This document shows, piece after piece, positions 1 to 44,268 of a stretch of DNA of 53,210 nucleotides. The notes beneath the pieces are model-generated. The model made no database searches and was not told where the DNA came from. It saw nothing but the letters and a program-made list of their open reading frames with translations. Position 1 is the first letter of the stretch; each line of letters opens with the position of its first letter. The position numbers and the translations under genes were made by a program. This DNA is from an uncultured bacterium (lineage in GTDB: Bacteria > Bacillota > Clostridia > Oscillospirales > Oscillospiraceae), in assembly GCA_948469375.1 (NCBI GenBank), contig CAOKLO010000019.1, forward strand, positions 1 through 53,210. Direction: 5' to 3'.

Positions 1-66
1 CTCTTGCATTGCTCTGAACGGTATTTTGTTGTTGTCCTTGTGCGGGGGGACCCTTGAGATTCAAGG

Positions 67-28450: not shown

Positions 28451-28737
28451 ATAGAAACAAGAGCAGGGATTTTCCACCTCATACATAGGATTCCAGCCGA
28501 CGGAGCGCTCAATATTTAGAAACGAATCCCTGGCCTTTTTGAAAACGGGCGACGCGAACAATCGAATGGATGTTTGATAACGCGCCGCCCGGGGCGGGCG
28601 GTCCGGCCTGACCGCGTCCGGCCCTGTGCGCCCGTTTCGGCATGGGGCTGGTCGGGCTCACCGGCCGGCGCATATGCTGGAATCAGGGATGCTTTTTGTC
28701 TGCCGCCGGCCCGGCCGTCGGCGGAGGAGGACCGTGC

Positions 28738-29412
28738 ATGACGAATAAGGAGCTACAAAAACTGGGCCGCCGGGAGCTTTTGCAGCTGCTGCTCGATCAG
28801 GCGAAGGAGGCGGAGCGGCTGGGCAAGCTGCTGAAGGAGAACGACGAACACCTCAAGCAGATGGAGGAGAGCTATGAGCGGCTGCGGGAGCGCTTGGATA
28901 AAAAGGACGCCCAGATTCACGAATTGAGGGACGCGCTCCAGGCGGAGCAGGAGAAGCGGGAGGCAGGGCCTGTCCAGCAGCCCGGCGGTGGTTTTGTGCC
29001 CGGCCGGCAGGGAATGCAGGGGGGATACCCCGGGTACGGCGCGGCGCCCGAGCAGGGCGCTCCCCAGCCCAGCGGCTACCAGCCTCAGCCCCCCTATCCG
29101 CCCCAGGCCCCCTACGGCGGCCAGTATCAGGCTCAGGCGCCGGACCCCTTTCCCTATCAGGTCCCGCCCCAGGCGCAGGAGCAGTACCTATACCAGAGTC
29201 CGGCGCCGGACCCCTTTCCCTATCAAGTCCCATACCAGGGCGGCCCGGCTCCGGAGCCCTACGCTCCGGGCATGGAGGCCCAATACCAATACCCGCCCCC
29301 CCGCCCCGAGCGGAAGCGCCAGGGCGGACAGCAGGGCAAAATGCCCTTCCGGCTGAAAAAGGACCAGGAGAACGGCAAGACCACCCTGTTCTTCGGCTGG
29401 CAGCATAACTAG
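28738..29412 (+). CDS. Coiled-coil/proline-rich protein of surface locus
   Basis: A 224-residue protein without a signal peptide. Residues 1-75 are helical and highly charged, with heptad-like Leu spacing (LQKLGRRELLQLLLDQAKEA). Residues 80-190 are low complexity, rich in Pro, Gln, Tyr and Gly, with PDPFPYQVP repeated twice. The end is basic, then polar. I chose ATG 28738 (GGAGGAGG upstream). Similar proteins sit before signal peptidase and LPXTG genes in gut Clostridia from memory, but no function is known to me. The tail could be an intracellular scaffold for the secretion and sorting machinery; that is a guess. Confidence 0.7.
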   Translation: MTNKELQKLGRRELLQLLLDQAKEAERLGKLLKENDEHLKQMEESYERLRERLDKKDAQIHELRDALQAEQEKREAGPVQQPGGGFVPGRQGMQGGYPGYGAAPEQGAPQPSGYQPQPPYPPQAPYGGQYQAQAPDPFPYQVPPQAQEQYLYQSPAPDPFPYQVPYQGGPAPEPYAPGMEAQYQYPPPRPERKRQGGQQGKMPFRLKKDQENGKTTLFFGWQHN

Positions 29413-29427
29413 GAAACGGTGGGCCCA

Positions 29428-30042
29428 ATGAAAAAGGAGAAGAAAGCGAAGCGCGGCGAAAAGACGTCAAAGCCGCTGGAAATGCCCACCATTGCTCAGC
29501 TGGAGGCGGAGCTGGGGCGGGAGAAATACCGCTGGCGGTTCCGCCGGGTGATGCGCAACACCATTTACGCCCTGGTCACGGTGGCGGCGGCGGCCGTGCT
29601 GGTGGCCACGCTGTGGATACCGGTGCTCCAGATCAGCGGAAACTCCATGACACCCACCCTTGCCGGCGGGGAAGTGGTGGTGACCGTTAAGGGAGCCAGC
29701 TTCCAGCCTGGAGACATCGTGGCGTTTTATTATGATAACAAGATCCTGGTCAAGCGGGTGATCGCGGGCCCCGGCGACTGGGTGGACATCGACGAGGCGG
29801 GCACCGTGTACGTCAACGAGCAGGAGCTCTATGAGCCCTACCTGGTGGAGAAGGCCCTGGGCGACTGCAACATTGAGCTGCCCTACCAGGTGCCGGAGTC
29901 GAAAATTTTTGTGATGGGGGACCACCGAAGCGTGTCGGTGGATTCCCGGAACACGGCCTTGGGCTGTGTGGCCTACGACCAGATCGTGGGAAAGCTTATT
30001 TTGCGTGTCTGGCCCTTTGACGCGCTGGGCACAGTGACATAA
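29428..30042 (+). CDS. lepB: Signal peptidase I
   Basis: A 204-residue type I signal peptidase. One membrane anchor near residues 45-65, then the catalytic Ser in SGNSMTPTL and the general-base Lys in KILVKRVIAGPGD, and the box MGDHRSVSVDSRNT. A basic cytoplasmic tail of about 40 residues precedes the anchor. Start ATG 29428; a GTG 9 bases earlier is possible. Being inside the pilus locus, it likely serves the large adhesin and pilins, as SipA-type peptidases do in streptococcal pilus islands. Confidence 0.93.
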   Translation: MKKEKKAKRGEKTSKPLEMPTIAQLEAELGREKYRWRFRRVMRNTIYALVTVAAAAVLVATLWIPVLQISGNSMTPTLAGGEVVVTVKGASFQPGDIVAFYYDNKILVKRVIAGPGDWVDIDEAGTVYVNEQELYEPYLVEKALGDCNIELPYQVPESKIFVMGDHRSVSVDSRNTALGCVAYDQIVGKLILRVWPFDALGTVT

Positions 30043-30093
30043 GAATGGCGATACCCCCTGCATTTTTTTCGAGGAAAGGAGAGTGTGGAAGTC

Positions 30094-33000
30094 ATGGAGA
30101 AGAAGCTGGCGGCGGCAGCTGAACGTTATCTGAATTCACTGCGTCAGAATAAGCGCAGGACGCAAATGCTGCGCTGCGTGGCGGTACTGGTGGTATTGGC
30201 CACGATCTCCGCCCTGGTCATGCCGGCACTCACCATGTCCAACGAGGTGGAATGCGGGCTGACCGAGCACATCCACACAGAGAGCTGCTGGTCTGAGCAG
30301 CTGGCCTTGCCTGAGCCGGAGCTCACCTGTACGGCGGGCGTGTCCGGAGAGGTTGTGGTCCATACCCATGATGAGTATTGCTGGGACAGCCAGGGCAATC
30401 TGATCTGCAATCTTCCGGAGACGGAGGCCCACGTCCACAGCGCGGAGTGCTATCAGGAGCACCGCACGCTGACCTGCGAGCAGACGGCGGAGCCGGGCCA
30501 CCAGCATGACGCCTCCTGCTACGCCTATGTCCGTGCGGAGAGCCCGGCCGCGGAGCATGCGGTCGTCTATACCTGCGGTATGCAGGAGGGCGAGGGCGCG
30601 CACCAGCATATGGAGGAATGTTATCCCCAGGAGCGGGTGGCGGAGCCCCTGTGCGGCCTGGAGGAGACCGGCGACGAGTACGACGGCGAGGGCAATCTGA
30701 TCCAGCAGGGCCACCGGCACACCGATGAGTGCTGGCTGGTGCGGGTCCACGAAAAGCTGGTCTGCGGCCTGGAGGAGACGGAAAACGAGTATGACGAGGA
30801 GGGCAATCTGGTCCGGGAGGGCCACGCTCACTCCGCCAGCTGCTGGCTGACCGGCAACGAGCTGTGTCTCCGGTACGGCTGCGGGCAGCAGGAGCGCGCG
30901 GGCCACGTCCACACCGACGCCTGTACCCAGGGAAGCGTCCAGGTGGACTCTCAGGGCGAGCAGTGGGAGCAGGTCCTGGTCTGCGGGGAGCAGGAGCGTG
31001 AGCCCGGCCATGTCCATACCGACGAGTGCTACGAGATCACCCAAATGCTGACCTGCCGCAGGCAGGAGCTGACGGCCCACACCCATAACGCGGGGTGCTG
31101 CGACGAGGACGGCGCGCTCATTTGCGGCCTGACCGAGGTGCTGGTCCATCAGCACACCGACGCCTGCTTCGCCACCCCGGAGGGCGGGCCGGAGCCCGCC
31201 AGGGTGCTGGTCTGCGGCAAGGAGGAGCACACCCACACCGACCTGTGCTATGTGAAGGTCCTCCCCGAGGAGGAAAGGGAGACCTTTTACTGCGGGCAGG
31301 AGGAGCATGTGCACAGCCTGGAGGAGTGCTATTTCCCGTCGGGCGGGCTGAAATGCACCCTGGGAGAGCATGTCCATGATATGACCTGCATGATCCCGCC
31401 GGCGGAGGAGTCCGACGACCCGCTGGAGTCTGGCGATCCGCTGGAGTCCGACGATCCTCAGCAGTCCCAAGGGCCGGAGGAGCCCGGACAGGGGGATGAC
31501 TCCCAAATCTGGGTGGATGAGTCTTACGTCCATGAGACGGAGGCGTTCCGGATAATCTTCCAGGTCACGGGCTGGGCAAAGCCCGCCGAGGACGGCCAGG
31601 AGGCCGGAGCCGCCGAAAATGAGCTCTGGATCAGCGATTTCGCCCCCGAAGTTGTCAGTACTCCCTCCTATGAGGAGGGGCTGGTGGAGCTGGTGAGCCA
31701 GAGAATTCCGCTGGCGGCCCTGCCGATGGGCTTTTCGGCCTCGCTGGACCCCGACGCCCTGCCGGGAGCCGACCCCTTCGCGGAAAATAATCGATCCGAA
31801 GCCGACACGGGACCGGCCGGTCCCGTTGGGTCTGTTGTTGAGGACAACAGACCAGCCCCGTCTAACGAACCGGTTCAGATCGCGCCGCAGGAGGAAGATG
31901 AGCCCGTTGTGATCCCCACGCCCGAGATAACGCCCAGCTTTACGCCCATTCCGGAGATCAGCCCGGAGCCTGTTCCCACCCCTGAGGCGGCGGAGCGGCT
32001 GGAGCTGGTGGTGGAGCAGCTGGCGGATACAGACCCGGAGTATCAGCGGGCCGCCGTCAACGCCCAGCTTGAGCTGGGCGAGGAGGAATCCACGGTGGTG
32101 GACGTGCTGAGAATCGCGCTGTATGCCGGGAACCAGAAGATGGACCTGTCCGGCTGCGAGGTGACGGCGGTTGTCGAGGCCACCCAGGAGCTGAAGGACG
32201 CCATGGAGGCCCAGGAGGCCATGACCGCCGACGAGGACGGTCCGCTGCCCGGTGAGGACGCGGAGAATCAGGAGGAAGAGGAGCCCACCTTTGCCATGAC
32301 CGACGAGCAGGGCGTCGTAGCCTTTGCCAAGGTCAGCGAGCCCATGGTGGTAACGCTGTCCAACGAGATCATGGCGCTGTCTGCGGTGGCCTCTCAAGCG
32401 AACCCCAGATTCACAGTGCAGTATTACGCCTATTTGGATACGGCGAACCTCAGCGAGACGGGCAAGACCGGAAAACAGCCTGAGGTGCTTGATACGCCGG
32501 GCGGGGTGCTACCGACGAACACGACTGCCGGGACTCATATCAAATATTTGGAGCTCAACAAGGATAAAACGGTCAAAACCTCCAATCACGTACAGCCCAT
32601 TTACCGCACACATATCTTTAATTATCTCAAGGCCCCCGGCATACAGTATTTCAATATTGTGACCAATAACCTGCAAAATGACGAGAACGGGAACCAAATC
32701 CTGTCCAACTATACGCTGGATGAAGTGTGGCTGCCGATAGCCGAGGGGGAAACCGTGGACACCGCCCATGGCTGGAGCGAGGTGCCGCGGGAGGATTTGC
32801 CCGCAGGCGAGACCGGCCGCTGGCAGAAAATCACATGGAATGACCGCCTGCATTTCACCAACCGGCCTAAAACTGCGGCGGATGACCCGGATCACTATAT
32901 CCTGATTGAGGAGGAGGACCTGATCCGGCTGGTTTACAACACAAAAACCGGGCATAAGGACTATCCGAGTAACTTTTACGATTACGATATCACGGATGGA

Positions 33001-34575
33001 AAGCGGTATGACGACAGCGGGAAGGAGGCCACCGGCGGAACCTACTTGAAAACGCAGGGAGAGACGCCGGGACAGGGCATCAACAGCGGTAGTAATTACG
33101 GGACCGGCCAGAAGCTGGCCTTCGGCAACAACAACACTGGAACAGGCTTGGGCGATCAAGCATCGAACGATTATTATATCAACCGGGCAAATAAAAACGT
33201 ATTTAGGTTCTGCTCCTTTGGTCTGGTAAAGGAGATGAATGCTGACGGCGGCTTGATTTACAAGGATGGAATCGCCGCCCCCAACCTGTTCGGCGGAGGA
33301 ACAATGCCGACGGGGAGAAGCGATTATAAAGGCAGCCTCAAGTTTTTGCAGGATGGCGATACGTACACCTTGACCTCCGCCGCTGTGGGGGGAGGCGGCT
33401 CCAGTGATTTGCATATGCTGAAGTATGACCGGGAGAACTGGGACAAAACGCTGCATATGTTCTCCAACGATTTTTGGCCGATGGATGCGGTAGAGAGCGC
33501 CGGCGCCGCAGGGCACGACCCCTTGCTTGGGCAGGGCCAGTATACGATGGCGGACGATCCACTGAAGCAGAAGGACCCTACAAGCGATTACCCCAATGGG
33601 GATGGAGTGGTAAAAAACCTCCACAACCCCTATTTCGGTATGAAATATGCCGTGGAATTTACCCTGACCGAGGACTACGTGGGCCCGCTGGAGTATATCT
33701 TCTTCGGCGACGACGACATGTGGGTGTTCCTGACCAACACGGAGACCGAGGAAAGCAAGCTGATCTGCGATATCGGCGGCGTGCACAACTCCGTGGGCGA
33801 ATATGTCGATCTGTGGGATCATGTGAAAAAAGACGGCTATGAGCGGAATCCTAGGCCGCTGGACACCACCAACCAGCAGGAGGGGGAGACCTACAGCGCC
33901 AGGTCCACAAAGTACCGCCTGACCTTCTTCTACACCGAGCGCGGCGCGTCCGGCTCCACCTGCTGGATGCAGTTCACCCTGCCCACCGCCGTAGGCGTGG
34001 ACCTGGAGGACATCATCGAAACCAAGGTGGACGAGAACCACGGCGCGCTGATTCTGGAGAAAAAAACAAACATCGACACCCTGGAAAAGTTTAAGTTTAC
34101 ACTGAAATTTGAGGGAATTACAGATTATCACGAGGTCGAAATCACCCGGCTGAACAGTAGCGGAGAGTGGGAGATTGTAACGGAGCTGCTGGAGGAGGGC
34201 GAAAGCACCTGGTATTTGGGCAAGGATGAAAAGCTGGTGATTACGAACCTGCCCAAGGGCGTAACATACACCATTACAGAGGCCGAGGCCAAGGGCTACG
34301 AGCCCAGCTATACGGTGGAAAACAAATATCATGGCGAAGAGGATGAGCGCCCGAAGGATTTCCCGGAAAATGTGCCGTCCACACCGGGGAATACCGTAAC
34401 CGGAACAATTCAGGGACTCAGTTCGGTGACGGTGACGTTTACCAACAACTCCTCCTATGAGCTCCCCTCCACCGGCGGAGCCGGTACCTGGTATACGATG
34501 GCGGGCGTGCCGCTGGCGGCGCTGCTTTGTCTGATGTATAAAAAGAAATCCAAGGGAGAGGGGGACGGAGGATAG
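30094..34575 (+). CDS. Giant LPXTG adhesin with HxHx3C array
   Basis: A 1493-residue cell-wall protein. Order: basic N-terminus and signal segment (about 22-47); residues 54-432 with fourteen His-x-His-x3-Cys motifs (one with x4), nearly all alternating with another Cys (LTC, LVCG); an acidic Pro/Ser linker; a 770-1240 part including a fibro-slime-like domain (FFGDDDMWVFLTN, CDIGGVHNS); a Cna-B-like domain (about 1318-1416, with YTITEAEAKGYEPSY); then the sorting signal LPSTG at 1457-1461, a membrane segment and KKKSK tail. The likely role is the tip or main adhesin of the sortase pilus. Start ATG 30094 is preferred to GTG 30085, which is too close to AAAGGAG. Confidence 0.85.
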   Translation: MEKKLAAAAERYLNSLRQNKRRTQMLRCVAVLVVLATISALVMPALTMSNEVECGLTEHIHTESCWSEQLALPEPELTCTAGVSGEVVVHTHDEYCWDSQGNLICNLPETEAHVHSAECYQEHRTLTCEQTAEPGHQHDASCYAYVRAESPAAEHAVVYTCGMQEGEGAHQHMEECYPQERVAEPLCGLEETGDEYDGEGNLIQQGHRHTDECWLVRVHEKLVCGLEETENEYDEEGNLVREGHAHSASCWLTGNELCLRYGCGQQERAGHVHTDACTQGSVQVDSQGEQWEQVLVCGEQEREPGHVHTDECYEITQMLTCRRQELTAHTHNAGCCDEDGALICGLTEVLVHQHTDACFATPEGGPEPARVLVCGKEEHTHTDLCYVKVLPEEERETFYCGQEEHVHSLEECYFPSGGLKCTLGEHVHDMTCMIPPAEESDDPLESGDPLESDDPQQSQGPEEPGQGDDSQIWVDESYVHETEAFRIIFQVTGWAKPAEDGQEAGAAENELWISDFAPEVVSTPSYEEGLVELVSQRIPLAALPMGFSASLDPDALPGADPFAENNRSEADTGPAGPVGSVVEDNRPAPSNEPVQIAPQEEDEPVVIPTPEITPSFTPIPEISPEPVPTPEAAERLELVVEQLADTDPEYQRAAVNAQLELGEEESTVVDVLRIALYAGNQKMDLSGCEVTAVVEATQELKDAMEAQEAMTADEDGPLPGEDAENQEEEEPTFAMTDEQGVVAFAKVSEPMVVTLSNEIMALSAVASQANPRFTVQYYAYLDTANLSETGKTGKQPEVLDTPGGVLPTNTTAGTHIKYLELNKDKTVKTSNHVQPIYRTHIFNYLKAPGIQYFNIVTNNLQNDENGNQILSNYTLDEVWLPIAEGETVDTAHGWSEVPREDLPAGETGRWQKITWNDRLHFTNRPKTAADDPDHYILIEEEDLIRLVYNTKTGHKDYPSNFYDYDITDGKRYDDSGKEATGGTYLKTQGETPGQGINSGSNYGTGQKLAFGNNNTGTGLGDQASNDYYINRANKNVFRFCSFGLVKEMNADGGLIYKDGIAAPNLFGGGTMPTGRSDYKGSLKFLQDGDTYTLTSAAVGGGGSSDLHMLKYDRENWDKTLHMFSNDFWPMDAVESAGAAGHDPLLGQGQYTMADDPLKQKDPTSDYPNGDGVVKNLHNPYFGMKYAVEFTLTEDYVGPLEYIFFGDDDMWVFLTNTETEESKLICDIGGVHNSVGEYVDLWDHVKKDGYERNPRPLDTTNQQEGETYSARSTKYRLTFFYTERGASGSTCWMQFTLPTAVGVDLEDIIETKVDENHGALILEKKTNIDTLEKFKFTLKFEGITDYHEVEITRLNSSGEWEIVTELLEEGESTWYLGKDEKLVITNLPKGVTYTITEAEAKGYEPSYTVENKYHGEEDERPKDFPENVPSTPGNTVTGTIQGLSSVTVTFTNNSSYELPSTGGAGTWYTMAGVPLAALLCLMYKKKSKGEGDGG

Positions 34576-34637
34576 AAGTGTACCCCGATCCCAACGCGAA
34601 AAACAACAAGTTAAGAGATCGAAAGGAGAACAAAAAA

Positions 34638-36128
34638 ATGAAGCATTTGAAGAAGCTGGGCAGCGTTCTGCTTGCCCTGGTCATGGTGATGGCGTTGGCC
34701 ATGCCCGCGTTTGCGGCGAACGATCCGGTCCCGGTAATCAACGGCGCCGATAAAGCGGATGCGAGCATTACGATCGACATCGGCACCCCGGAGGGGGGCA
34801 CGAACAACGCGACTTACACCTATTATCAGATGCTCCGCGCGTCCATCGGCGCGGACGGCAAGACGGTGTCCTATTATCTGCTGTCCGCTGACGCCACGAC
34901 CAAAACTGCTCTGGAAGGCTTAATGGTCGGCGAGAAAGTTCTGTTTGCCTTTACTGAGAGTGCCGATAAAACTCGTTGGAACGTGACCCTCAACGCGGCG
35001 GATGCCACTGGTGAGCAGATCGCGGCTGCGCTCGAGACCGTCAAAGAGAAGGCTATTATCTCCAGCACAATGACGGAAGGTGAGGATGGCAATCCGACGG
35101 CCACCGGCCTTGATAAGGGCTACTATCTGATTACCTCCACCTTGGGAACCAATCTGGTCCTGGACACCCTGGGCCATGAGACCATTAAGACCAAGAACGA
35201 GTATATCACCAACGAAAAGACCGCCAGCACGACCAATATGAATGTTGGCGACACTGTGACGTATACCATTAAGGTCCACATCCCGGCTGCCGCCGTTGTG
35301 GGCGACACGGTGACCGTGCACGATACCCTTGATGTGCATCTTAAGATCGTCGACCTCGACAGCATTGCCGCTAAGGTTGGCGAAACGACTGTTAAGCTGT
35401 CTGATGGCGAAAAAGAGTCGGAGAATGAGACCTTTGCCAAAAGCTTTAAGATCACTGAGGGAATGCTTGGTAAAGACGTTATCTTGACCTACGATGCCGA
35501 GCTGCTCAGCACCGCTGCGGACAATACCGGTTATGTGAATGAGGTCTTCACCAACACCCCGACTTATGAGACGAACACCGATCAGGCTGAGGTTTGGACA
35601 TTCGATTTCGACCTGGATAAGAACTTCTCCGGTGCGGAAGGCGATTCCAGCAAGATCGCGAAGTTCGAGCTTGCTGACAGCAAGGGAAATAAGATCGAGT
35701 TTGTCAAAGACAATACCGGCTATGTGAAGGCTGATTCCGATGATACGGATAAGACTACAACGCTGGAAGTCAATGGTGAGGACACCATCAACATCCGCGG
35801 CCTGGCCGCCGGTGAATACACCCTGACGGAGATCGAGACTGCCGATGGCTACAACCTGCTGAAGGATCCTGTTACCGTGATCATCACGGATACCACAAAT
35901 AAGGACACCACTCCGGTGGTCCCGTCCCACACGGTTTCCTATAAGGTTGGTGATGGTGAGCTTCAGGAGAACGTTGAAAACGTGGAGATTCTGAACAACG
36001 CCGGCACCGAGCTGCCCAGCACCGGCGGCATCGGCACCACCATCTTCTACATTGTCGGCGGCATTCTGGTTCTGGGCGCGGTGGTCCTGCTGATCACCAA
36101 GCGCCGCACCAGCGTTGACGACGAATAA
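34638..36128 (+). CDS. LPXTG backbone pilin (isopeptide type)
   Basis: A 496-residue secreted protein. Signal peptide with cleavage near AFA-A (residue 26). Lys-containing ITNEKTAS may be the polymerisation region, followed by an isopeptide-type beta domain. The E-box YTLTEIETADGYN lies near residue 393-405, typical of SpaA/Cna-B folds. LPSTG at 459-463, a membrane segment and basic tail follow. Between adhesin and class C sortase, as for major pilins. Its codons are richer in GTT, GGT and GCT than its neighbours, as in highly expressed genes. GAAAGGAG precedes the start. Confidence 0.88.
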   Translation: MKHLKKLGSVLLALVMVMALAMPAFAANDPVPVINGADKADASITIDIGTPEGGTNNATYTYYQMLRASIGADGKTVSYYLLSADATTKTALEGLMVGEKVLFAFTESADKTRWNVTLNAADATGEQIAAALETVKEKAIISSTMTEGEDGNPTATGLDKGYYLITSTLGTNLVLDTLGHETIKTKNEYITNEKTASTTNMNVGDTVTYTIKVHIPAAAVVGDTVTVHDTLDVHLKIVDLDSIAAKVGETTVKLSDGEKESENETFAKSFKITEGMLGKDVILTYDAELLSTAADNTGYVNEVFTNTPTYETNTDQAEVWTFDFDLDKNFSGAEGDSSKIAKFELADSKGNKIEFVKDNTGYVKADSDDTDKTTTLEVNGEDTINIRGLAAGEYTLTEIETADGYNLLKDPVTVIITDTTNKDTTPVVPSHTVSYKVGDGELQENVENVEILNNAGTELPSTGGIGTTIFYIVGGILVLGAVVLLITKRRTSVDDE

Positions 36129-36175
36129 GACAGACAGCACACACCAGACATAGCGACTAAGTAAGCAATCCCGTG

Positions 36176-36212
36176 CTTCGCCGCGCCGCGGGAGGACCGC
36201 GGCGCGGCGAAG
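36176..36212 (+). promoter_or_regulatory. GC-rich hairpin between pilin and sortase
   Basis: A perfect 16-bp stem (36176-36191 with 36197-36212) with a 5-nt loop and no T run. Its 3' arm ends in GAAG and continues to GAG, the start of the sortase ribosome site 36209-36215, 11 bases before the ATG. It could protect the pilin mRNA 3' end, stop part of the transcripts, or hinder sortase translation. Confidence 0.85.
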
Positions 36213-36225
36213 GAGTTGAGAACCC

Positions 36226-37116
36226 ATGAAAAAAAACCTGACCAACATCCTGTTGGTGGTTATCCTGCTGGTAGGGGCGGCCATCCTGCTGTACCCCACC
36301 TTCAGCGACTATTGGAATTCATTTCACCAGTCCCGGGCCATCGCCAGCTATTCCGACAGCGTGGCCAACCTGAACGAGGCGGAATACGAGCGCATCTGGC
36401 AGGAGGCCGTGGACTACAACGCCGAAATGTCCGGCAAAAGCATCCCCTACACCCTCTCCGAGGCGGAGTGGGCGGACTATGAGTCCCAGCTGAACTTTTC
36501 CGGCAACGGCATCATGGGGTATATTGATATCCCTAAAATCAACGTGTCTCTGCCCATTTACCACGGCACCAGCGAATCGGTGCTCCAGATCGCCACGGGG
36601 CACATTGAGAGCAGCTCCCTGCCGGTGGGGGGCCCGTCCACCCACTGCATCATTTCCGGCCACCGGGGCCTGCCCAGCGCCAAGCTGTTCACCGACCTGG
36701 ACCAGATGGCGGAGGGCGACCTTTTTCAGCTGAAAATTTTGAACGAAGTAATGACCTATGAGGTGGACCAGATTCGCATTGTTTTGCCCAGCGAGCTGGA
36801 TACCCTGGGCATCATCCAGGGGCAGGACCACTGCACCCTGGTGACCTGTACGCCCTACGGAATCAACAGCCACCGTTTGTTGGTGCGGGGCAAGCGCGTC
36901 GCCAACCCAGAGACGGAGTCCAACGCCCGGGTCACCTCGGACGCCATCCGCATTGACCCGCTTCTGGTGGCCCCTGCGGCGGCGGCGCCCATTCTGGTAG
37001 CCATGGCGGTGTGGCTGATTATAAATCCGGGCGGAAAGAAGAAGAAAAAGGGCAAAGAGAGGGCTCAAAAGCCCAAAAAGGAAAAGAAAACCCATAAAGA
37101 CGAAAATTCCACCTGA
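36226..37116 (+). CDS. srtC: Class C sortase (pilin polymerase)
   Basis: A 296-residue sortase with N-terminal and C-terminal membrane segments (about 8-25 and 248-265), the topology of pilus-building class C enzymes. Catalytic His146 (ISGHRGLP), Cys208 (TLVTCTPYG) and an Arg in HRLLVRGK. GYIDIPKI precedes the core. The usual DPF/DPW lid motif is not seen; a stretch SQLNFSGNGIMGYI stands in its place. The tail is Lys-rich. It should link backbone pilin subunits through LPSTG to a Lys side chain. Confidence 0.92.
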   Translation: MKKNLTNILLVVILLVGAAILLYPTFSDYWNSFHQSRAIASYSDSVANLNEAEYERIWQEAVDYNAEMSGKSIPYTLSEAEWADYESQLNFSGNGIMGYIDIPKINVSLPIYHGTSESVLQIATGHIESSSLPVGGPSTHCIISGHRGLPSAKLFTDLDQMAEGDLFQLKILNEVMTYEVDQIRIVLPSELDTLGIIQGQDHCTLVTCTPYGINSHRLLVRGKRVANPETESNARVTSDAIRIDPLLVAPAAAAPILVAMAVWLIINPGGKKKKKGKERAQKPKKEKKTHKDENST

Positions 37117-37157
37117 CGCGAATCTGCGGACAGGTTTTCAGAAAGGCGGGCGTCCCC

Positions 37158-38441
37158 ATGAGATTGAAAACGATACTCCATCGAGCCACAGCTGGGGCGT
37201 TGTGCTTGATATTGTGCATCGCCGCGCTGTCGCAAACCGCCCTGGCGGTCAGTGTGCCCGGAAGCGCGGGGCCGGTCAATGTGAACCGGAAAAACTGCAC
37301 GCTGACGCTGCACTATCTCCACCCGGATGTGACGGTGCGGCTCTACCGGGTGGCGGACGTGGATGCAAACATGAGCTTTACCATGACGAGCGAGTTTTCC
37401 TATCCCAAGACCACCTTGAATTATGATCCCAGCGCCTGCCAAACGGCAGGACAGTGGCAGGACCTGGCCCAGAGGCTGTGGGGAGAGGTCACGACTCAGA
37501 CCGCCACGGTGCGCAAGACGGCCGACGACGGAAAGGGCGGCTTTGCCGCCAAATTTGGAGGGCTGACGCCGGGACTCTATTTGGTGGTGACGGATAAGTA
37601 CACCTACAGCGAGAAGGACCCGACCTATGGGGTGGAGACCCGGAATATCCAATATACGGTGAACCCCTACCTGGTCAGCGTGCCCACCTGGAGCGACACG
37701 AAAAAAGACTGGATTTACGACATTGAGGGCGACGCCGGGGCGAAGGCCACCTCCAGCGATTCGGAAACAGTGGGGTATATGGCCCTGAAGGTCTGGCGCG
37801 ATGGCAACGGCAACACCATCAGCTGGCCCTTTACCGGCCCGATTACGCTGGTTTTGCAGCGGTGGGAATACGGCCGGTGGGTGGATGTGCCCGGCCAGGA
37901 ACGGGAGGTGTATTCCTGGCATCCCTGGTGCTGCTGGGAGAATTTGGACGGCCATTACAGCTACCGGGTGCGGGAATCCTATGTGCTGAACGGCTATACC
38001 AGCAGCGTGAGCCTTTCCAACGCGAATCCCTATACCTTTGTGGTGACCAATACCAAAAACGGTACGACAACGACGACGAGCCAGCCTCCGGTTTATTCGA
38101 GCCAGCCCCCCACGTGGTCGAGCCAGCCCCCCACATGGTCGAGCCAGCCGCCTACATGGTCGAGCCAGCCCCCCACATGGCCGACCCGGCCGCCCCAAAC
38201 GAGCCGTCCCCCGGACACGGAGCTGGACGACCCGGATGTGCCCTTGGGCAATCGGACGCCCCCGCCGGGGAATACCCCGCCGAACGATGAGATCGAGCTG
38301 GACGATCCCGATGTGCCGCTGGGCGACCTGCCGCAAACGGGCCAGCTGTGGTGGCCGGTGCCTGTGCTGGCGGTGAGCGGAGCGTTCCTGCTGCTGGTAG
38401 GCCTTGTCCGCCGCAGAGGCGGGGAGTATGACGATGAATAA
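37158..38441 (+). CDS. LPXTG ancillary pilin with Pro-rich stalk
   Basis: A 427-residue surface protein. Signal peptide with cleavage near ALA (about 31); pilin-like beta domain with EFSYPKTTLNY and a FGGLTPGLYLVV segment (E-box-like region lacking the usual Glu); second beta domain; a PPTWSSQ-repeat stalk; two ELDDPDVPLG copies; sorting signal LPQTG, membrane segment and RRRGGEYDDE tail. The stalk and position fit a basal pilin that anchors the fibre in the wall. The sorting motif LPQTG differs from LPSTG of the other two, and the second sortase gene follows directly, suggesting a specific pair. Confidence 0.82.
   Translation: MRLKTILHRATAGALCLILCIAALSQTALAVSVPGSAGPVNVNRKNCTLTLHYLHPDVTVRLYRVADVDANMSFTMTSEFSYPKTTLNYDPSACQTAGQWQDLAQRLWGEVTTQTATVRKTADDGKGGFAAKFGGLTPGLYLVVTDKYTYSEKDPTYGVETRNIQYTVNPYLVSVPTWSDTKKDWIYDIEGDAGAKATSSDSETVGYMALKVWRDGNGNTISWPFTGPITLVLQRWEYGRWVDVPGQEREVYSWHPWCCWENLDGHYSYRVRESYVLNGYTSSVSLSNANPYTFVVTNTKNGTTTTTSQPPVYSSQPPTWSSQPPTWSSQPPTWSSQPPTWPTRPPQTSRPPDTELDDPDVPLGNRTPPPGNTPPNDEIELDDPDVPLGDLPQTGQLWWPVPVLAVSGAFLLLVGLVRRRGGEYDDE
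38079..38183 (+). repeat. 21-bp tandem repeat, five units
   Basis: Five in-frame 21-bp units (first degenerate) beginning AGCCAGCC, encoding SQPPTWS-type repeats in the ancillary pilin stalk. In-frame expansion or loss would change stalk length without breaking the gene. Confidence 0.9.
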
Positions 38442-39054
38442 ACGAGGATTGGTGTGCATTGTCGCCGGTGTGGTTCTGCTCCTGTCCGCTCTGGGGCTTT
38501 CAGGATATAATATTATTGATGAGCGCCAGGCCGGAGAAAATGTGGAAAAGGCCTATGAGCAACTGCGGGTCTATGCCCTGGAGCCGGGAGAGCTGGAGCT
38601 GCCGGAGGGACTGATCCCCGCTTACCAGGTGGAGCCGGAGGTAGAGATGTCCATGGTGGAAATCGATGGACATTATTATGTAGGCTACGTCAGCCTTCCC
38701 ACTCTGGATCTGGAGCTGCCGGTGATGAGCGAGTGGAGCTATCCCAACATGAAAATTGCCCCCTGCCGGTATTGGGGCTCCGTTTATTTGAACAATATGG
38801 TTATCTGCGCCCACAACTATGTGAACCATTTCGGCAGGCTGGACGGAATCGCCATAGGCGACCCTGTGACCTTTACTGATGTGGACGGCAACGTGTTTCA
38901 GTATCAGGTGTCTGAGCTGCTTCAGCTCTGGCCCAATCAGACCTTTGAAATGGTAAAGGGGAACGACTGGGACCTGACGCTGTTCACCTGTACGCCCAGC
39001 GGCCGCCAGCGCTTGACCGTGCGTTGCGTTTTGGCGGAGGATACGCCGTCGTAA
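38428..39054 (+). CDS. Second sortase, class uncertain
   Basis: A 208-residue sortase with one N-terminal membrane segment (about 8-25). Catalytic His129 (ICAHNYVNHFG), Cys188 (LFTCTPSG) and Arg in RQRLTVRC. It lacks the C-terminal membrane segment of the class C enzyme, and YVGYVSLPTLDLELPV fits class D/E-like enzymes. Its start lies inside the end of the ancillary pilin gene; ATG 38428 has GGGGAG upstream, ATG 38434 is also possible. It may anchor the pilus base to peptidoglycan. Confidence 0.87.
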   Translation: MTMNKRGLVCIVAGVVLLLSALGLSGYNIIDERQAGENVEKAYEQLRVYALEPGELELPEGLIPAYQVEPEVEMSMVEIDGHYYVGYVSLPTLDLELPVMSEWSYPNMKIAPCRYWGSVYLNNMVICAHNYVNHFGRLDGIAIGDPVTFTDVDGNVFQYQVSELLQLWPNQTFEMVKGNDWDLTLFTCTPSGRQRLTVRCVLAEDTPS

Positions 39055-39057
39055 GAC

Positions 39058-39086
39058 TTGAAATGGGCGCCGAAAGCTGGTATAAT
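39058..39086 (+). promoter_or_regulatory. Near-consensus promoter before the transglutaminase gene
   Basis: TTGAAA (39058-39063), 17 bp, TATAAT (39081-39086), directly after the sortase stop. It separates the sortase locus from the following lipoprotein/pilus-machine operon, where gaps are short. Confidence 0.88.
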
Positions 39087-39153
39087 CAGTAAGCGTCAGA
39101 AAAGCGTCGAAGGCAGGCGGCTTGAATTTGCTGCGGGAAAGAAGGACGGGCAT

Positions 39154-40473
39154 ATGAAAAGGAAGATCATCATCTCGTTGTTGCTGGCGGGCTGTTGTCT
39201 GCTTGCCGGCTGCTCAAAAACAGCTTCAGACGAGGATGTATTTGGCAATCCCGATCCCGCGCCCGTGGACAACGATCCCCTGATCCAGCAGACGGAGGGG
39301 CCCTCCGCCGGAGTGGGTGCCGGCGATGACATAGAGGGCAGCGCCGTCCCCGAGAGCGACCCTGCCGGGACGGACGCTCCCTCTGAGGCAGGCGCGTCTG
39401 AGAGCAGTCCGGCCGGTCCGGAGGATGCGCCGAGCGGCAATCTGTCTCCCAGCGCTCAGACGACTGACGGTCCGGGCGGCGGCACTCCGCCTGCGGGCAA
39501 TACGCAGAGCGGCAACGCGCAGGTCCCGGCCACTGAGAAGCATACCAGTGCGCCGGTCACGCCCGCTCCCGCAGCGAGCACCGGACCCTTCATCGACGAG
39601 GTGGCCATGAGCGAGGACGTGAACCTGGGAGATGAGCTGGTCCCCATGTCCGCTGCTCCCGCCGCCCTGCCCGCCGTGCTCTCGCCGGTGGCCTCCGGTA
39701 CGGCGGTCAAGTCCGGCGGCGGTGCGGAAATTGATTACTCCAACAGCAAGGACGGCTATGTCATGGCCCGCTTTGCGTCCAGCAGCAGCAAGCGCCTGCG
39801 GGTACAGGTGGCCGGGCCCACCACGACCTATACCTATGACTTGTCTACCGGGGGATGGGTGACCTACCCGCTGTCCGACGGCAACGGCAGCTATAAGGTC
39901 ACCGTCCTGCAAAACACCACGGGAAAGAAGTATGCCGTGCTGGCCGCCGCCACCTTCCAGGTGTCGCTGACGGACGAGTTCGCCCCTTTCCTGCGGCCCA
40001 ACCAATATGTGAACTACGAGGGCGCCGCCAACACCATCGCCACGGCGGCGACGCTGACCCGCAATATCACCAAACCGCTGGACAAGGTGGGCGCTGTGTA
40101 CAACTACGTAGTGAGCAACCTGACCTATGACAGCGCCAAGGCGGCGACGGTGGCCAGCGGCTATCTGCCCGATCTGGACAGCGTGCTGGCCAGCAAGACG
40201 GGAATTTGCTTTGACTATGCGGCGCTGATGACTGGAATGCTCCGCAGCCAGGGAATTCCCTGCAAGCTGGTGGTTGGCTACGCAGGCACCACCTATCACG
40301 CCTGGGTCAGTGTGTGGACCCAGGAGATGGGCTGGGTGGACAACGCCATCTATTTTGACGGCACCACCTGGCACCGGATGGACCCCACCTTTGCTTCCTC
40401 CGGAAACAGCAATGAGGAGATCATGCAGTATATTGGGAACGGAAGCAATTATACGGTGAAATATCTCTACTGA
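39154..40473 (+). CDS. Lipoprotein with transglutaminase-like domain
   Basis: A 439-residue lipoprotein: lipobox LLAGC with Cys20, a 150-residue Ser/Pro/Gly-rich spacer, a beta domain, and a transglutaminase-like core at about 300-439. The triad is complete: Cys352 (GICFDYA), His382 (TYHAWVSVW) and Asp410 (RMDPTFA). In bacteria such domains act as peptidases or cross-linkers. Extracellular and first in the operon with PilC and PilT, it may process or cross-link surface fibres. Start ATG 39154 was chosen because the lipobox follows it. Confidence 0.87.
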   Translation: MKRKIIISLLLAGCCLLAGCSKTASDEDVFGNPDPAPVDNDPLIQQTEGPSAGVGAGDDIEGSAVPESDPAGTDAPSEAGASESSPAGPEDAPSGNLSPSAQTTDGPGGGTPPAGNTQSGNAQVPATEKHTSAPVTPAPAASTGPFIDEVAMSEDVNLGDELVPMSAAPAALPAVLSPVASGTAVKSGGGAEIDYSNSKDGYVMARFASSSSKRLRVQVAGPTTTYTYDLSTGGWVTYPLSDGNGSYKVTVLQNTTGKKYAVLAAATFQVSLTDEFAPFLRPNQYVNYEGAANTIATAATLTRNITKPLDKVGAVYNYVVSNLTYDSAKAATVASGYLPDLDSVLASKTGICFDYAALMTGMLRSQGIPCKLVVGYAGTTYHAWVSVWTQEMGWVDNAIYFDGTTWHRMDPTFASSGNSNEEIMQYIGNGSNYTVKYLY

Positions 40474-40486
40474 TAGGGAGCTTTGC

Positions 40487-41515
40487 ATGAAACGATTGAT
40501 TTCCAACGAAGACATCGCAAGCCTGTGCCTGGAACTATCGCTCCTTTTTCACGCCGGTGTGAGCACTGGGGACGCCCTGTCCCTGCTGGCGGAGGAAGGG
40601 GACAGGCGAGGTATGCTCAAAGCAATGGCGGAGCAGGTGGACAGCGGATCAACGCTGTCCGCCGCTTTGCGTGAAAGCGGGGCTTTTCCCATCTACGTCT
40701 CCGGCCTGGTGGAGGTGGGTGAGCGCACCGGGCGCACTGAGGAGGCGCTGGCCGCCCTGTCCCGGTATTATGAGGACCGGGTCCGGCTGAGCCGACGCAT
40801 TCGAAGCGCGCTGCTGTACCCGGCGGTGATGCTGGCGCTGATGCTGGTGGTCATCGGAGTGCTGCTGGTGCGGGTGCTGCCAATTTTTGACGATGTGTAC
40901 GCCTCTCTGGGGGGACGGCTCACCGGAGTGGCGGCGGGCCTGCTGACCCTGGGCCAGTGGCTGGAGGGCGTCATGCCCGTCCTGTACATCGTGATCGCGG
41001 TGCTGGCCCTGCTGGTGCTGCTGTTTTCCGCAGTTGCGCCGCTCCGCCGCGGGGTGGTGTCCCTGTGGCAGAAAACCCGCGGCGACAAGGGCGTGTCCCG
41101 GAAGCTGAATAACGCCCGTCTGGCCCAGGCCCTGGCCATGGGTATGGCCAGCGGCCTTCCGGTGGAGGAGGCGGTGGCCCTGTCCGCCGGACTGATGGAG
41201 AGCGGCGCGAAGAGGCGGTGTGAGAACTGCCAAAAGCGGCTGGAGAGCGGCGAAGGCCTGGGAGAGGCGCTGAAAAAAAGCGGCCTGCTCCCCGCCCGGC
41301 AGAGCCGCCTGCTGGAGCTGGGTCAGCGCAGCGGCGCGGGGGACGCCTCCATGGAGAAGATCGCCCGGGACCTGGGCGAGGAGGGCGAGGCCGCCCTGGA
41401 CGCCCTGGTCAGCCGGGTGGAGCCCGCCCTGGTGCTGGTGTGCTCGGTGCTGGTGGGGCTGATTCTGCTGTCTGTGATGCTGCCGCTGATGCACATCATG
41501 AGCGCCATCGGGTGA
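40487..41515 (+). CDS. PilC/GspF-type platform protein
   Basis: A 342-residue inner-membrane platform protein of type IV pilus/type II secretion machines. Two T2SSF repeats: residues about 10-130 (LFHAGVSTGDALSLLAEEG, GERTGRTEEAL) and 210-335 (MASGLPVEEAVALS, ELGQRSGAGDASM). Three membrane segments near 110-130, 155-185 and 315-335. It couples the ATPase to pilin insertion or removal. It starts 13 bp after the transglutaminase stop. Confidence 0.92.
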   Translation: MKRLISNEDIASLCLELSLLFHAGVSTGDALSLLAEEGDRRGMLKAMAEQVDSGSTLSAALRESGAFPIYVSGLVEVGERTGRTEEALAALSRYYEDRVRLSRRIRSALLYPAVMLALMLVVIGVLLVRVLPIFDDVYASLGGRLTGVAAGLLTLGQWLEGVMPVLYIVIAVLALLVLLFSAVAPLRRGVVSLWQKTRGDKGVSRKLNNARLAQALAMGMASGLPVEEAVALSAGLMESGAKRRCENCQKRLESGEGLGEALKKSGLLPARQSRLLELGQRSGAGDASMEKIARDLGEEGEAALDALVSRVEPALVLVCSVLVGLILLSVMLPLMHIMSAIG

Positions 41516-41519
41516 GCCT

Positions 41520-41843
41520 ATGAAAAGAAAGAAGAGTGGATTGGGCGCGCTTCTGAGGGGGCTGCTGCTGCCGGCTGTGGCAGTGGCGGCGCTGTTGTGC
41601 TTTGCCACCGCCGTGGACAGCCTGGACAGCGGGCGGTCTGAGGAGGACCTGCGCCAGTTGGAGGAAACCCTGCGGCGCAGCTGTGTGGCCTGCTACGCCG
41701 CCGAGGGGGTCTACCCCCCCAACCTGGATTATTTGAAGGAGCGCTATGGCCTCCAGATCGACGAGGAGCGGTATACGGTCAAATATTCCGCGTTTGCGGA
41801 AAATTTGATGCCGGATATCACTGTGCTGGAGAACGGGTCATGA
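41520..41843 (+). CDS. Small single-membrane-segment pilus-operon protein
   Basis: A 107-residue protein: basic N-terminus, one hydrophobic segment (about 12-33), then a soluble part with two Cys (SCVACYAAEGVYPPNLDYL). The stretch VYPPNLDYLKERYG resembles the Y-P-x-L motif seen after the helix of minor pilins. No prepilin Glu5 is obvious. It overlaps the next gene by four bases. Probably a minor-pilin-like component; no family name assigned. Confidence 0.65.
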   Translation: MKRKKSGLGALLRGLLLPAVAVAALLCFATAVDSLDSGRSEEDLRQLEETLRRSCVACYAAEGVYPPNLDYLKERYGLQIDEERYTVKYSAFAENLMPDITVLENGS

Positions 41844-42319
41844 AGAGACAGGGGACAAAGCACCAGGTGGACGGACTGCTGATGATGCTGCTGTTCGGCG
41901 TGTTTGCGGTGTGTGTGCTGGCGGTGCTGCTGACGGGGGCGAAGGCCTACCGTGGCCTGACGGAGCGGGATCAGGCGGCCTATGACCGCCGGACCTGCGT
42001 GCAGTATATCGCCACGCGGGTACGGCAGGGTGATATCGAGGGCGGCGTGACGGTGGAGCCCTTTGGGGACACCACGGCGCTGTGCATGACCCAGGACGGG
42101 TACGTCACCCGGGTGTACTGGCATGACGGATATCTCATGGAGCTGTATACCAGTGAGGATGCAGAGCTGTATCCGGAGGACGGGGAGAAGATCATGCCGC
42201 TGGAGAGCCTGTCCTGGTCCATGGAGGATGGACTTCTGAGGGCGGAGATCGGCGCCGCCGGAGGTGTGGTGGACACCCTCCGACTGTCCCTGCGCAGCGG
42301 AGAGGGGGATTTGCCATGA
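41840..42319 (+). CDS. DUF4860-like membrane protein
   Basis: A 159-residue protein with a short basic N-terminus, HQVDGLLMMLLFGVFAVCV membrane segment and a beta-rich outer domain (YVTRVYWHDGYLMELYTSED). It fits my memory of DUF4860, found in Clostridial pilus-like operons. Gly12 before LLMML is a possible but weak prepilin site. Overlaps both neighbours by four bases, so coupled translation is likely. Confidence 0.68.
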   Translation: MKRQGTKHQVDGLLMMLLFGVFAVCVLAVLLTGAKAYRGLTERDQAAYDRRTCVQYIATRVRQGDIEGGVTVEPFGDTTALCMTQDGYVTRVYWHDGYLMELYTSEDAELYPEDGEKIMPLESLSWSMEDGLLRAEIGAAGGVVDTLRLSLRSGEGDLP

Positions 42320-42786
42320 AGAGCAAGGCCCCCCTGCTTCTGATGGAGCAGATGGTGATGCTGCTGGTGTTCGCGCTGGCAGCGGCGCTGTGCCTCCAGG
42401 CGTTTGTAAGCTCGGACGGGGCGTCAAGCCGCAGTGAGCAGCGGGACCGGGCGGTGACTTTATGCCAGGAGGCGGCAGAGGCCATCCGCCACAGCGGCGG
42501 GGACCCGGAGCACGCCCTGAGCAGGGCCGCAGAGCTGCTGGACACGACCTGCGGCGAATATTCTGAGGTCTATCCCCTCCAGATCAATTACAACGAGGAT
42601 TGGACCCGGTCGGAGGATCGGAATTATGCCTATTGCCTGCGGGCGCACGGTTTGGAGAGCGAAGTGCCTGGGCTGTGTAAAGCGTTGGTGAAGGTGACGG
42701 ACAGCACCGACACCCGGACATTGTTTGAACTCGAGGTAGCCTGGCAAGTGACGGAGGTGGAGATCGACGATGGCACAGCAGAGTAA
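42316..42786 (+). CDS. Pseudopilin-like protein
   Basis: A 156-residue protein. The N-terminus MKSKAPLLLMEQMVMLLVFA resembles a type IV pilin start: short basic leader, then LLLME with Glu at the fifth place and a long hydrophobic helix. The usual Gly before the cut is replaced by Ala-Pro, so cleavage is uncertain. The outer domain has three Cys (DTTCGEY, YAYCLRAHG, GLCKAL). Likely a minor pilin. Overlaps the next gene by 17 bases. Confidence 0.65.
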   Translation: MKSKAPLLLMEQMVMLLVFALAAALCLQAFVSSDGASSRSEQRDRAVTLCQEAAEAIRHSGGDPEHALSRAAELLDTTCGEYSEVYPLQINYNEDWTRSEDRNYAYCLRAHGLESEVPGLCKALVKVTDSTDTRTLFELEVAWQVTEVEIDDGTAE

Positions 42787-43198
42787 GCCCCGGGAGCGGT
42801 TTTCCCCTCCCGCGGTGGGTGGCATCTCCCTGTTGGTGGTGTTTGCGGTGCTGTGCCTGACGGTGTTCGCCCTGCTGGCGCTGACCACCGTCCAGGCGGA
42901 CAACCGGCTGGCGGACGCCTCCGCCAAGGCTGTGACGGACTACTACGCCGCCGACTGCAGGGCCCAGGAGATATTGGCCCGCCTCCGCAATGGTGAGCGG
43001 CCCGAGGGTGTGGAGCACGAGTATTCCGACGGCATGATTTACCGTTATATTGTCCCCATTTCGGACACCCAGGAGCTCCAGGTGAGCGTGGTCATTGAGC
43101 CGGACGGCAGCTATCGGGTGCTGAGCTGGCAGGCGGCCCCCTCGGCCGAGTGGGAGTCGGACGACTCCCTGGACCTGTGGGATGGGATCGATTTTTAA
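42770..43198 (+). CDS. PilX/GspK-like membrane protein
   Basis: A 142-residue protein with VGGISLLVVFAVLCLTVFAL after 16 polar residues; Gly-Gly followed by a hydrophobic run without Glu5 recalls GspK/PilX minor pilins. The outer domain begins with a helical segment (ASAKAVTDYYAADCRAQEI). No clear family. By operon position it completes a set of four pilin-like proteins. Confidence 0.62.
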   Translation: MAQQSKPRERFSPPAVGGISLLVVFAVLCLTVFALLALTTVQADNRLADASAKAVTDYYAADCRAQEILARLRNGERPEGVEHEYSDGMIYRYIVPISDTQELQVSVVIEPDGSYRVLSWQAAPSAEWESDDSLDLWDGIDF

Positions 43199-43209
43199 AG
43201 GAGAAGCTT

Positions 43210-44268
43210 ATGACACGACTGACGGATTATTTGCAGAAGGCTGTGAGCGACCGGGCGTCCGACCTGTTTATTGTGGCGGGCGGGCCGGTGAGCGCCAAGG
43301 TGGAAAACCGGCTGGTGCCGGTCAGCGAGGACCGGGTGTTTCCGGCGGAGACGGAGGAGCTGGTCCGGGAGGTATACACCCTGGCGGACCGGCCCATGGA
43401 CCGCTTCCTCCAGCAGGGAGACGACGACTTCTCCTTTTCCATGACCGGCATGGCCCGGTTCCGGGTGAACGTCTACCGCCAGAGAGGGTCCATGGCGGCG
43501 GTAATCCGGGTGGTGGCCTTTGACATCCCCCATTGGACGGATCTCTCCATCCCGGATCAGGTGATGAACCTGGCGGAGGTGACCCACGGCATGGTGCTGG
43601 TCACCGGCACGGCGGGCAGCGGCAAGTCCACCACCCAAGCCTGCATCATCGACCGCATCAACCGTACTCGGGAGTGCCACATCATCACCCTGGAGGACCC
43701 CATCGAGTACCTCCACCGGGACCGGAAGAGCATTGTCAGCCAGCGTGAGGTGGCCATTGACACCCAGGACTACCCCTCGGCGCTGCGGGCCTGCCTGCGG
43801 CAGGCGCCGGATGTGATCCTGCTGGGCGAAATGCGGGACCAGGAGACCATCCACACCGCCATGACGGCGGCGGAGACGGGCCATCTGCTTATCGCCACCC
43901 TGCACACCAAGGGGGCGGTGAACACCATCGACCGCATTGTGGACACCTTCCCCAGCGGCCAGCAGGACCAGGTGCGGGTTCAGCTGAGCATGGTGCTGCA
44001 CACGGTGGTGTCCCAGCAGCTGGTGCCCGATGTAAAGGGAGGGCTGGTGCCCGCCTTTGAGATCATGCACGTAAACAACGCCATCCGGAGCCTGATCCGG
44101 GACAGCAAAACCCATCAGATTGACAACGCCATCGCCGCCGGAGGGGCGGAGGGAATGGTCACCATGGACCAGTCTCTGCTGACGCTGCACAAGACCCGCC
44201 AGATCACGGCGGAAACGGTGCTGTCCTATGCGGACAACCCCGACCAGCTGCGCCGGAGAATGGGCTGA
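43210..44268 (+). CDS. pilT: PilT-type pilus retraction ATPase
   Basis: A 352-residue secretion/pilus ATPase of PilT size and pattern. N-terminal DYLQKAVSDRASDLFIVAGG; Walker A GTAGSGKST (133-141); Asp box ITLEDPIEYLH; Walker B VILLGEMRDQET; His box HLLIATLHTKGA. It lacks the tetracysteine zinc motif and long N-domain of PilB/GspE. Start ATG 43210 has AAAGGAG. PilT drives pilus disassembly, yet no PilB is found in the window, so either PilB is elsewhere or this ATPase works alone. Confidence 0.95.
   Translation: MTRLTDYLQKAVSDRASDLFIVAGGPVSAKVENRLVPVSEDRVFPAETEELVREVYTLADRPMDRFLQQGDDDFSFSMTGMARFRVNVYRQRGSMAAVIRVVAFDIPHWTDLSIPDQVMNLAEVTHGMVLVTGTAGSGKSTTQACIIDRINRTRECHIITLEDPIEYLHRDRKSIVSQREVAIDTQDYPSALRACLRQAPDVILLGEMRDQETIHTAMTAAETGHLLIATLHTKGAVNTIDRIVDTFPSGQQDQVRVQLSMVLHTVVSQQLVPDVKGGLVPAFEIMHVNNAIRSLIRDSKTHQIDNAIAAGGAEGMVTMDQSLLTLHKTRQITAETVLSYADNPDQLRRRMG

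Follow-up and report, generated by a model that had tools for sequence, protein, structure and literature searches.

Our analysis has defined an array of 14 tandem units, each containing two Cys and two His, at the N-terminal side of a giant surface protein encoded in the window, a term that denotes the whole analysed stretch of 53,210 nucleotides. The array contains no named repeat or domain family above the cut-offs of Pfam or NCBIfam. On the basis of its sequence, we regard it as somewhat probable that a metal ion, most likely zinc, which is bound within each unit, folds and stiffens the distal end of a pilus adhesin in anaerobic bacteria. The array would then be a tandem domain for metal binding, as yet without a name, in the N-terminal part of an adhesin of sortase-assembled pili. 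In this domain, a unit of the form C-G-x-E-E-(x3)-H-x-H-x3-C-Y would contribute two Cys and two His to a single ion, presumably Zn2+, and the first and the last unit, with four residues separating the first Cys from the HxH motif (x4), would cap an interior where units with a corresponding spacing of seven residues (x7) are the commonest. In a segment of 380 residues, the metal would take over the job of disulfides in anaerobes for which no Dsb/VKOR oxidation machinery was found in the genomes sampled. The chemistry of the array is better supported than its purpose. Two aspects, the rule that governs its end units and its context in a pilus operon, extend the sequence-only reading of the same DNA.

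Organization of the array

The array protein is encoded on the forward strand at positions 30085–34575 and comprises 1496 residues if counted from a GTG; the ATG at position 30094, with a better-spaced ribosome site, is the likelier start codon. It contains a hydrophobic signal or transmembrane segment, the array, which starts about five residues past this segment, an acidic linker, a fibro-slime-like region, a DUF7601 domain and an LPSTG anchor. On the forward strand, the array extends from the start of the codon of its first Cys (C1 of the first unit) to the end of the codon of its last Cys (C2 of the last unit), at positions 30253–31389, in exact agreement with the bounds that had been assigned before, and its residues 57–435 as numbered from the GTG correspond to the previously given residues 54–432, which were counted from the ATG. 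The sequence-only reading had listed 13 exact HxHx3C motifs and a single HxHx4C variant, all of which are found in the forward frame, the variant reading HVHSLEEC, and it had described nearly all of them as alternating with a second Cys, a residue that is present in 14 of 14 units. Since each HxH motif has its own preceding Cys, the motif count defines 14 complete units of the form C1-x(4..19)-HxH-x3/4-C2 between C57 and C435, with gaps between C1 and HxH that in order amount to 4, 10, 7, 7, 8, 19, 19, 7, 8, 7, 7, 4, 4 and 4 residues.

All units are located on the forward strand. The first, which is of the x4 or 'cap' type (C57, H62, H64, C68; 30253–30288), is followed by an x10 unit (C82, H93, H95, C99; 30328–30381), by units 3 and 4 of the x7 type (C108, H116, H118, C122; 30406–30450 and C131, H139, H141, C145; 30475–30519), by the x8 unit 5 (C164, H173, H175, C179; 30574–30621) and by two units with an extended x19 spacing (unit 6: C190, H210, H212, C216; 30652–30732 and unit 7: C227, H247, H249, C253; 30763–30843). 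Unit 8 is again of the x7 type (C266, H274, H276, C280; 30880–30924) and unit 9 of the x8 type (C300, H309, H311, C315; 30982–31029), and both are succeeded by the x7 units 10 (C324, H332, H334, C338; 31054–31098) and 11 (C347, H355, H357, C361; 31123–31167). The array closes with three x4 units, namely unit 12 (C377, H382, H384, C388; 31213–31248), unit 13, which carries the HxHx4C variant (C403, H408, H410, C415; 31291–31329), and the terminal 'cap' unit 14 (C424, H429, H431, C435; 31354–31389).

The 390-residue region encompassing the array contains 31 His and 30 Cys, the latter consisting of 14 C1, 14 C2 and two extra residues (C261 and C339). In 10,000 residue shuffles of this region, exact motifs averaged 0.18 and never exceeded four, which rules out a chance origin, and the remaining five frames of the window contain five isolated HxHx3C motifs. 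Recent duplication of DNA was also rejected as the cause of the likeness of the units, which keep their Cys and His yet differ elsewhere.

Distribution among bacterial surface proteins

The proposal that similar repeats exist in gut clostridial surface proteins was borne out by searches of genomes, profiles and contigs. With the window array as query, seven of 60 genomes showed a match including its own, corresponding to six of 59 relatives. Profile searches retrieved six of 398 genomes of the phylum and 15 of 391 genomes of the class, in both cases with the own genome included and with one match disrupted, by an internal stop in the former and by numerous stops in the latter. A search of the phylum of an Erysipelotrichaceae carrier retrieved two of 295 genomes, that carrier included. 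The occurrence of the array is thus sporadic. A peptide-pattern scan of genome contigs matched 61 stretches, 44 of which are relatives, with titles that name Oscillospiraceae, Lachnospiraceae, Ruminococcus (including R. flavefaciens), Blautia, Tyzzerella, Erysipelotrichaceae, Clostridiales Family XIII and others and that, in several cases, refer to gut or rumen sources. Most of the gut and rumen bacteria with this repeat on their surface proteins are uncultured. We have discarded a role as phage or plasmid cargo, as there were no relatives in plasmids, none in viral contigs when searched with patterns derived from one array only, and a single match in phages, to a record (MT835974.1, 'Bacteriophage sp. 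clone scaffold_1106, UNVERIFIED') that looks like a mislabelled contig of a clostridial chromosome.

The set used for counting comprises 72 extracted arrays with 482 units, after removal of repeat matches to one array, of L027 (which equals L005), L063 (a near-duplicate of L062) and L021 (whose two units of the x4 type include a single exact motif) and of L022 and L084 with their broken frames. Its longest member (L031), with 31 counted units and visible internal near-repeats, is part of one LPETG protein. In 13 sister proteins scanned with Pfam, the array is accompanied by Cna_B, SpaA, DUF7601, CHAP, CBM_4_9, LRR_5 and FctA domains, in one protein (L069) by a VWA domain together with a GBS104-like tip-pilin Ig domain and, below cut-off, by one pectate-lyase-like and one collagen-binding match, and 12 of 15 sister ORFs contain LPxTG or LPxSG within their last 60 residues. 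The varied passengers and the nature of these C-termini characterize the array as a movable N-terminal module of surface proteins.

Conservation of putative ligands and the choice between metal and disulfides

A lack of conservation of Cys and His among homologous repeats, which the sequence-only reading had named along with an absence of bound metal as refuting its proposal, is not what the homologues show. In an alignment of the window array with three of them (L002, L003 and L033), identity extends to each of the 56 Cys/His columns compared to 68 of 327 other columns, with a Fisher p of about 9e-33 that is only indicative since the sequences are related. In the 72 arrays, the spacing between HxH and C2 is x3 in 472 of 482 units (x4 in seven and x5 in three). 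A C1 is found within 24 residues in 463 units, of which 199 have an x4 and 188 an x7 spacing between C1 and HxH. Common features in other positions include a Glu at C1+4 (78–86% of units), a Tyr right after C2 (65–74%) and a Leu two residues before C1 (51% of x4 and 82% of x7 units). The density of Cys, counted on those of the first 55 arrays that are followed by at least 300 residues, is 7.9 per 100 residues in the arrays compared to 0.51 in the parts after them. While 456 units are complete, 16 lack a C1 within 24 residues, nine of which, when read by eye, have a C1 further off that is separated by a long loop, and there are four outright losses of C2 and about three of H1. In these sequences, His appears as hard to lose as Cys, with both disappearing at similarly low rates. 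Insertions occur in the C1-HxH loop as well as in the linker between units, and their tolerance does therefore not settle the register of the ligands.

Such properties bear on the claim that the array either binds metal or forms disulfides, the first part of which is favoured by our data whereas the second has lost weight. The surface metal-binding rod considered in the sequence-only reading is a hypothetical shape of the array. In 58 of 72 arrays, the sequence begins with C1 and the 35 residues past the last C2 are free of Cys, which suggests that in these cases CHHC units use up all ligands, whereas the other 14 contain a Cys in this range. In light of four ligands per unit, of His being as conserved as Cys and of the closed register, we favour a CHHC metal site. 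The alternative of a disulfide array, with bonds either between C1 and C2 or across a hairpin between C2 and the next C1 and with a different role of HxH, is rather improbable. It would agree with the presence of paired Cys at short spacing in a secreted protein and with the commonest linkers of eight and six residues, the former of which, with Tyr at +1, Gly at +5 (in 41%) and Leu at +7, could form a β-hairpin that places C2 beside the following C1, in which case the register could be inter-unit or the Cys pair a disulfide. However, His is conserved as strongly as Cys, and the carriers belong to Oscillospiraceae, Lachnospiraceae and other groups that are mostly strict anaerobes. Moreover, VKOR, DsbA and DsbB each found no match in 18 carrier genomes, only seven of which have a known completeness of 90% or more with no more than 5% contamination, compared to 3, 8 and 6 of 14 control genomes, respectively. 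This absence weighs against disulfides, although it may be usual in clostridia and thus reflect the group. Disulfides might also form spontaneously in the array.

A rule for the units at both ends

The distribution of unit types within the arrays follows a distinct pattern. Units of the type C-x4-HxH-x3-C occupy 132 of 144 array ends (68 first and 64 last units, out of 72 each) compared to 67 of 338 interior positions, where the x7 unit prevails as commonest type (180 of 338). Since the contig scan had used, among others, the peptide EEHTHTDE, which favours x4 units, the rule was rechecked on sets found otherwise and after clustering. The x4 unit is found at 18 of 24 ends and 12 of 91 interior positions in arrays from genome searches (set A) and at 33 of 34 ends and 5 of 44 interior positions in arrays from the class-wide profile (set C), with respective values of 81 of 86 and 50 of 203 in the x4-biased peptide scan (set B). 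Seven arrays of set C consist of just two counted units, both x4, including L089 with a degenerate unit in between and L091, which begins at a contig edge. Single-linkage clustering at 50% identity left x4 at 114 of 126 ends and 67 of 320 interior positions, a value that was reached in none of 20,000 within-array permutations, and the same holds at 40% (37 of 42 ends and 25 of 74 interior positions). At 35%, x4 is found at 15 of 18 ends and 10 of 37 interior positions in nine clusters, for which the permutation no longer separates (observed 7 of 10, mean 4.9). In L029, L049, L080 and L091, which are located within 150 nucleotides of a DNA end, the real terminal unit may differ from the one counted. 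Exceptions include L014 with x7 at both ends, L019 and L020, where the first C1 is missing, and L004 and L008, which open with an extra divergent HxHx6C lacking C1 that was skipped in the counts and contain an extra Cys at the end, and there are others. In the window array, the last three units rather than the final one alone are of the x4 type.

The described rule suggests a folded domain consisting of two end units and an extendable middle instead of a string of independent sites, and it points to a minimal construct of two units that is directly makeable. It is also possible that the rule originates from common descent of the end units. A surface store or scavenger, where the same sites would serve to accumulate or buffer zinc or a different metal for the cell's own use or to withhold it from competitors, has a low probability. 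The 14 sites of the window protein and the 31 counted units of the longest array, each on one surface protein, would be suited for this purpose, and so would the strong negative charge, which in the window array is reflected in 74 Asp and Glu compared to 17 Lys and Arg in 379 residues. In contrast, 27 of 72 arrays contain just two or three counted units, which are few for storage, the pattern of the end units argues for a folded domain, and the annotated neighbours, which comprise part of the genes in the window, include no metal transporter or metal regulator.

Relationship to known families and metal sites

Searches up to an E-value of 1 with the window array found no match in Pfam, NCBIfam or PHROGs. 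With further arrays, there was no match in NCBIfam (five arrays, E up to 10), a few matches below cut-off in Pfam (best E 0.024, for L006) and a best E of 0.41 in PHROGs, which gives no cut-off. By sequence, no related entry was found in the PDB, and three weak profile matches to ciliary proteins (E 0.12–1.6) were judged to be chance. Two AlphaFold2 models of six units are poor, with mean pLDDT values of 47.9 and 50.0 and pTM values of 0.20 and 0.23, and a Foldseek search with the better one found no match; hence we do not draw any site geometry from these models. In both, most HxxxC segments include a short helical turn, as is typical for the equivalent segment of C2HC fingers, to which we attribute no weight in view of the low confidence. 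In the searched part of the PMC literature, we recognised no paper on the motif, as judged partly from titles and the beginnings of abstracts. We call the array a metal-type repeat on a Gram-positive adhesin, which is a known kind, and an earlier description of the motif is conceivable.

Several known systems share individual features with the array. In common with zinc knuckles (CCHC), which have a spacing of C-x2-C-x4-H-x4-C, and with small C2HC and C2H2 fingers, it is built of tandem units that are very short, contain four Cys/His ligands each and end in HxxxC as found in C2HC. Unlike in zinc knuckles, its ligands are ordered as C-x4/7-H-x-H-x3-C and it sits in the N-terminal part of secreted Gram-positive surface proteins with no Pfam match above cut-off. 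The difference in spacing sets it apart from this class, and no zinc-knuckle model was among the matches listed. The streptococcal histidine-triad (Pht) proteins, which also carry repeated zinc-related His motifs on a Gram-positive surface, contain HxxHxH without Cys, whereas the motif of the array includes Cys and is spaced differently. A cofactor other than zinc, such as Fe2+, an Fe-S centre, Cu+ or haem, is quite unlikely: several of these can be held by Cys2His2 sets, and the gut lumen is reducing, but the unit displays neither the C-x-H/C-x2-H spacing of Rieske proteins nor the C-x2-C-H spacing of cytochrome c.

A different precedent for zinc chemistry in the repeats of cell-wall-anchored adhesins, which the array would share, is provided by staphylococcal proteins. 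The B-repeats (G5-E) of Aap are large domains whose Zn sites lie at dimer contacts, and SasG forms a similar zinc zipper. In contrast, the units of the array encompass about 15–35 residues with two Cys and two His each, and no G5 match was found in the window protein. It is very unlikely that neighbouring pili zip their arrays via shared metal in a comparable zinc-dependent homophilic contact, for which the putative distal position, the repeats, the metal-type ligands and the example of Aap (PMC9802226) could be brought forward. The array does not match known repeats and, as each unit has four ligands of its own, no open coordination site would be required. Adhesion by free thiols, where the 30 Cys stay reduced and bond covalently with mucin or other host thiols, would be in line with the failure to find oxidation machinery in carrier genomes and with several gut or rumen sources among the carriers, but it leaves the equally conserved HxH and the fixed HxH-x3-C spacing unexplained and is extremely unlikely.

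The array protein in a pilus gene cluster

Judged by its encoded domains, the locus at positions 29419–39054 is a sortase pilus gene cluster with the array protein as its large first surface protein. All of its genes reside on the forward strand. Directly upstream of the array gene is a signal peptidase I (29419–30042; TIGR02227, 117.5 bits, above cut-off). In the array protein itself, DUF7601 scores 42.8 bits (cut-off 27), whereas the LPXTG model remains below cut-off at the C-terminal LPSTG (13.8 compared to 15.9 bits). The fibro-slime model TIGR02148 is a close miss (42.7 bits with a cut-off of 45, E 6e-11), which leaves the protein just short of this family, whose literature, among the matches listed, is mainly Fibrobacter and rumen work. 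The array gene is followed by an LPXTG pilin with an isopeptide-forming domain (34578–36128; TIGR04226, 33.9 bits, cut-off 30), which is above cut-off for Gram_pos_anchor and below it for the SpaH/EbpB family (73.7 compared to 95 bits), by a class C (pilin) sortase (36226–37116; NF033745, 272.4 bits, cut-off 160), by a second LPXTG-type, pilin-like protein that is below both family cut-offs (37158–38441) and by a second sortase (38404–39054; PF04203, 47.1 bits, cut-off 26.6). The combination of a class C sortase and an LPXTG pilin in one gene cluster identifies a sortase-assembled pilus operon.

Equivalent features are found in other carriers. A signal-peptidase-type motif is located upstream, usually at a distance of about 400 nucleotides, in 20 of the 35 contig-scan arrays with at least 1.5 kb of upstream sequence. 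In a profile search of 15 directly handled carrier genomes, 11 contain a sortase downstream on the same contig and strand at about 5–18 kb, whereas in G007, G023, G032 and G699 it is not on the contig of the array, and a sortase is present in all 21 genomes examined. A plain motif search, compared to which the profile search is the better test, found a sortase-type motif downstream in four of eight loci with at least 3 kb.

The large first surface protein of a sortase pilus cluster is the usual place of the tip adhesin. Gene order and size of the array protein fit this assignment, and a GBS104-like tip domain was detected in only one of 13 scanned sister proteins, L069. With tip adhesins resembling GBS104 and SpaC, the array protein of the window shares an operon that includes a class C sortase, an LPXTG pilin and a signal peptidase, and this one sister protein shares the VWA and GBS104-like Ig domains; among tip adhesins, a Cys-His array of this kind at the N-terminal side is not known to us. 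Upon cleavage of the signal peptide and C-terminal linkage by sortase, the array would become the outermost end of the pilus. We tentatively consider a more far-reaching scenario, which we regard as doubtful: a self-capped tandem metal array of 2 to 31 units, with an x4 cap at either side of a largely x7 interior, would represent a new type of extracellular domain, zinc would replace disulfides in secreted proteins of anaerobes, and the outermost segment of the pilus would fold only with metal, so that adhesion would track the zinc level in the gut. If the units hold zinc, they would illustrate by what means secreted adhesins are stabilised in anaerobes that lack disulfide machinery, and they would tie adhesion to the supply of zinc, which is controlled by the host.

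Other observations concern the surroundings of the cluster. The pair of sortases is directly followed by a transglutaminase-core protein (39058–40473), and genes of the GspF/PilC-like, DUF4860 and PilT families (40487–44268) form an adjoining type IV pilus-like cluster. Upstream of the signal peptidase, a 256-residue protein (28642–29412) shows only weak matches of the coiled-coil type, and a similar-looking ORF is found at the same place in the record MT835974.1 (L096). When read by eye, this record contains ORFs for a signal peptidase I, an adhesin with array and LPSTG motif and an LPSTG pilin in the same order as in the window. In the assembly of the window (G000), whose listed contamination is 6.24%, nine sortase matches were found alongside a single Cys-His array.
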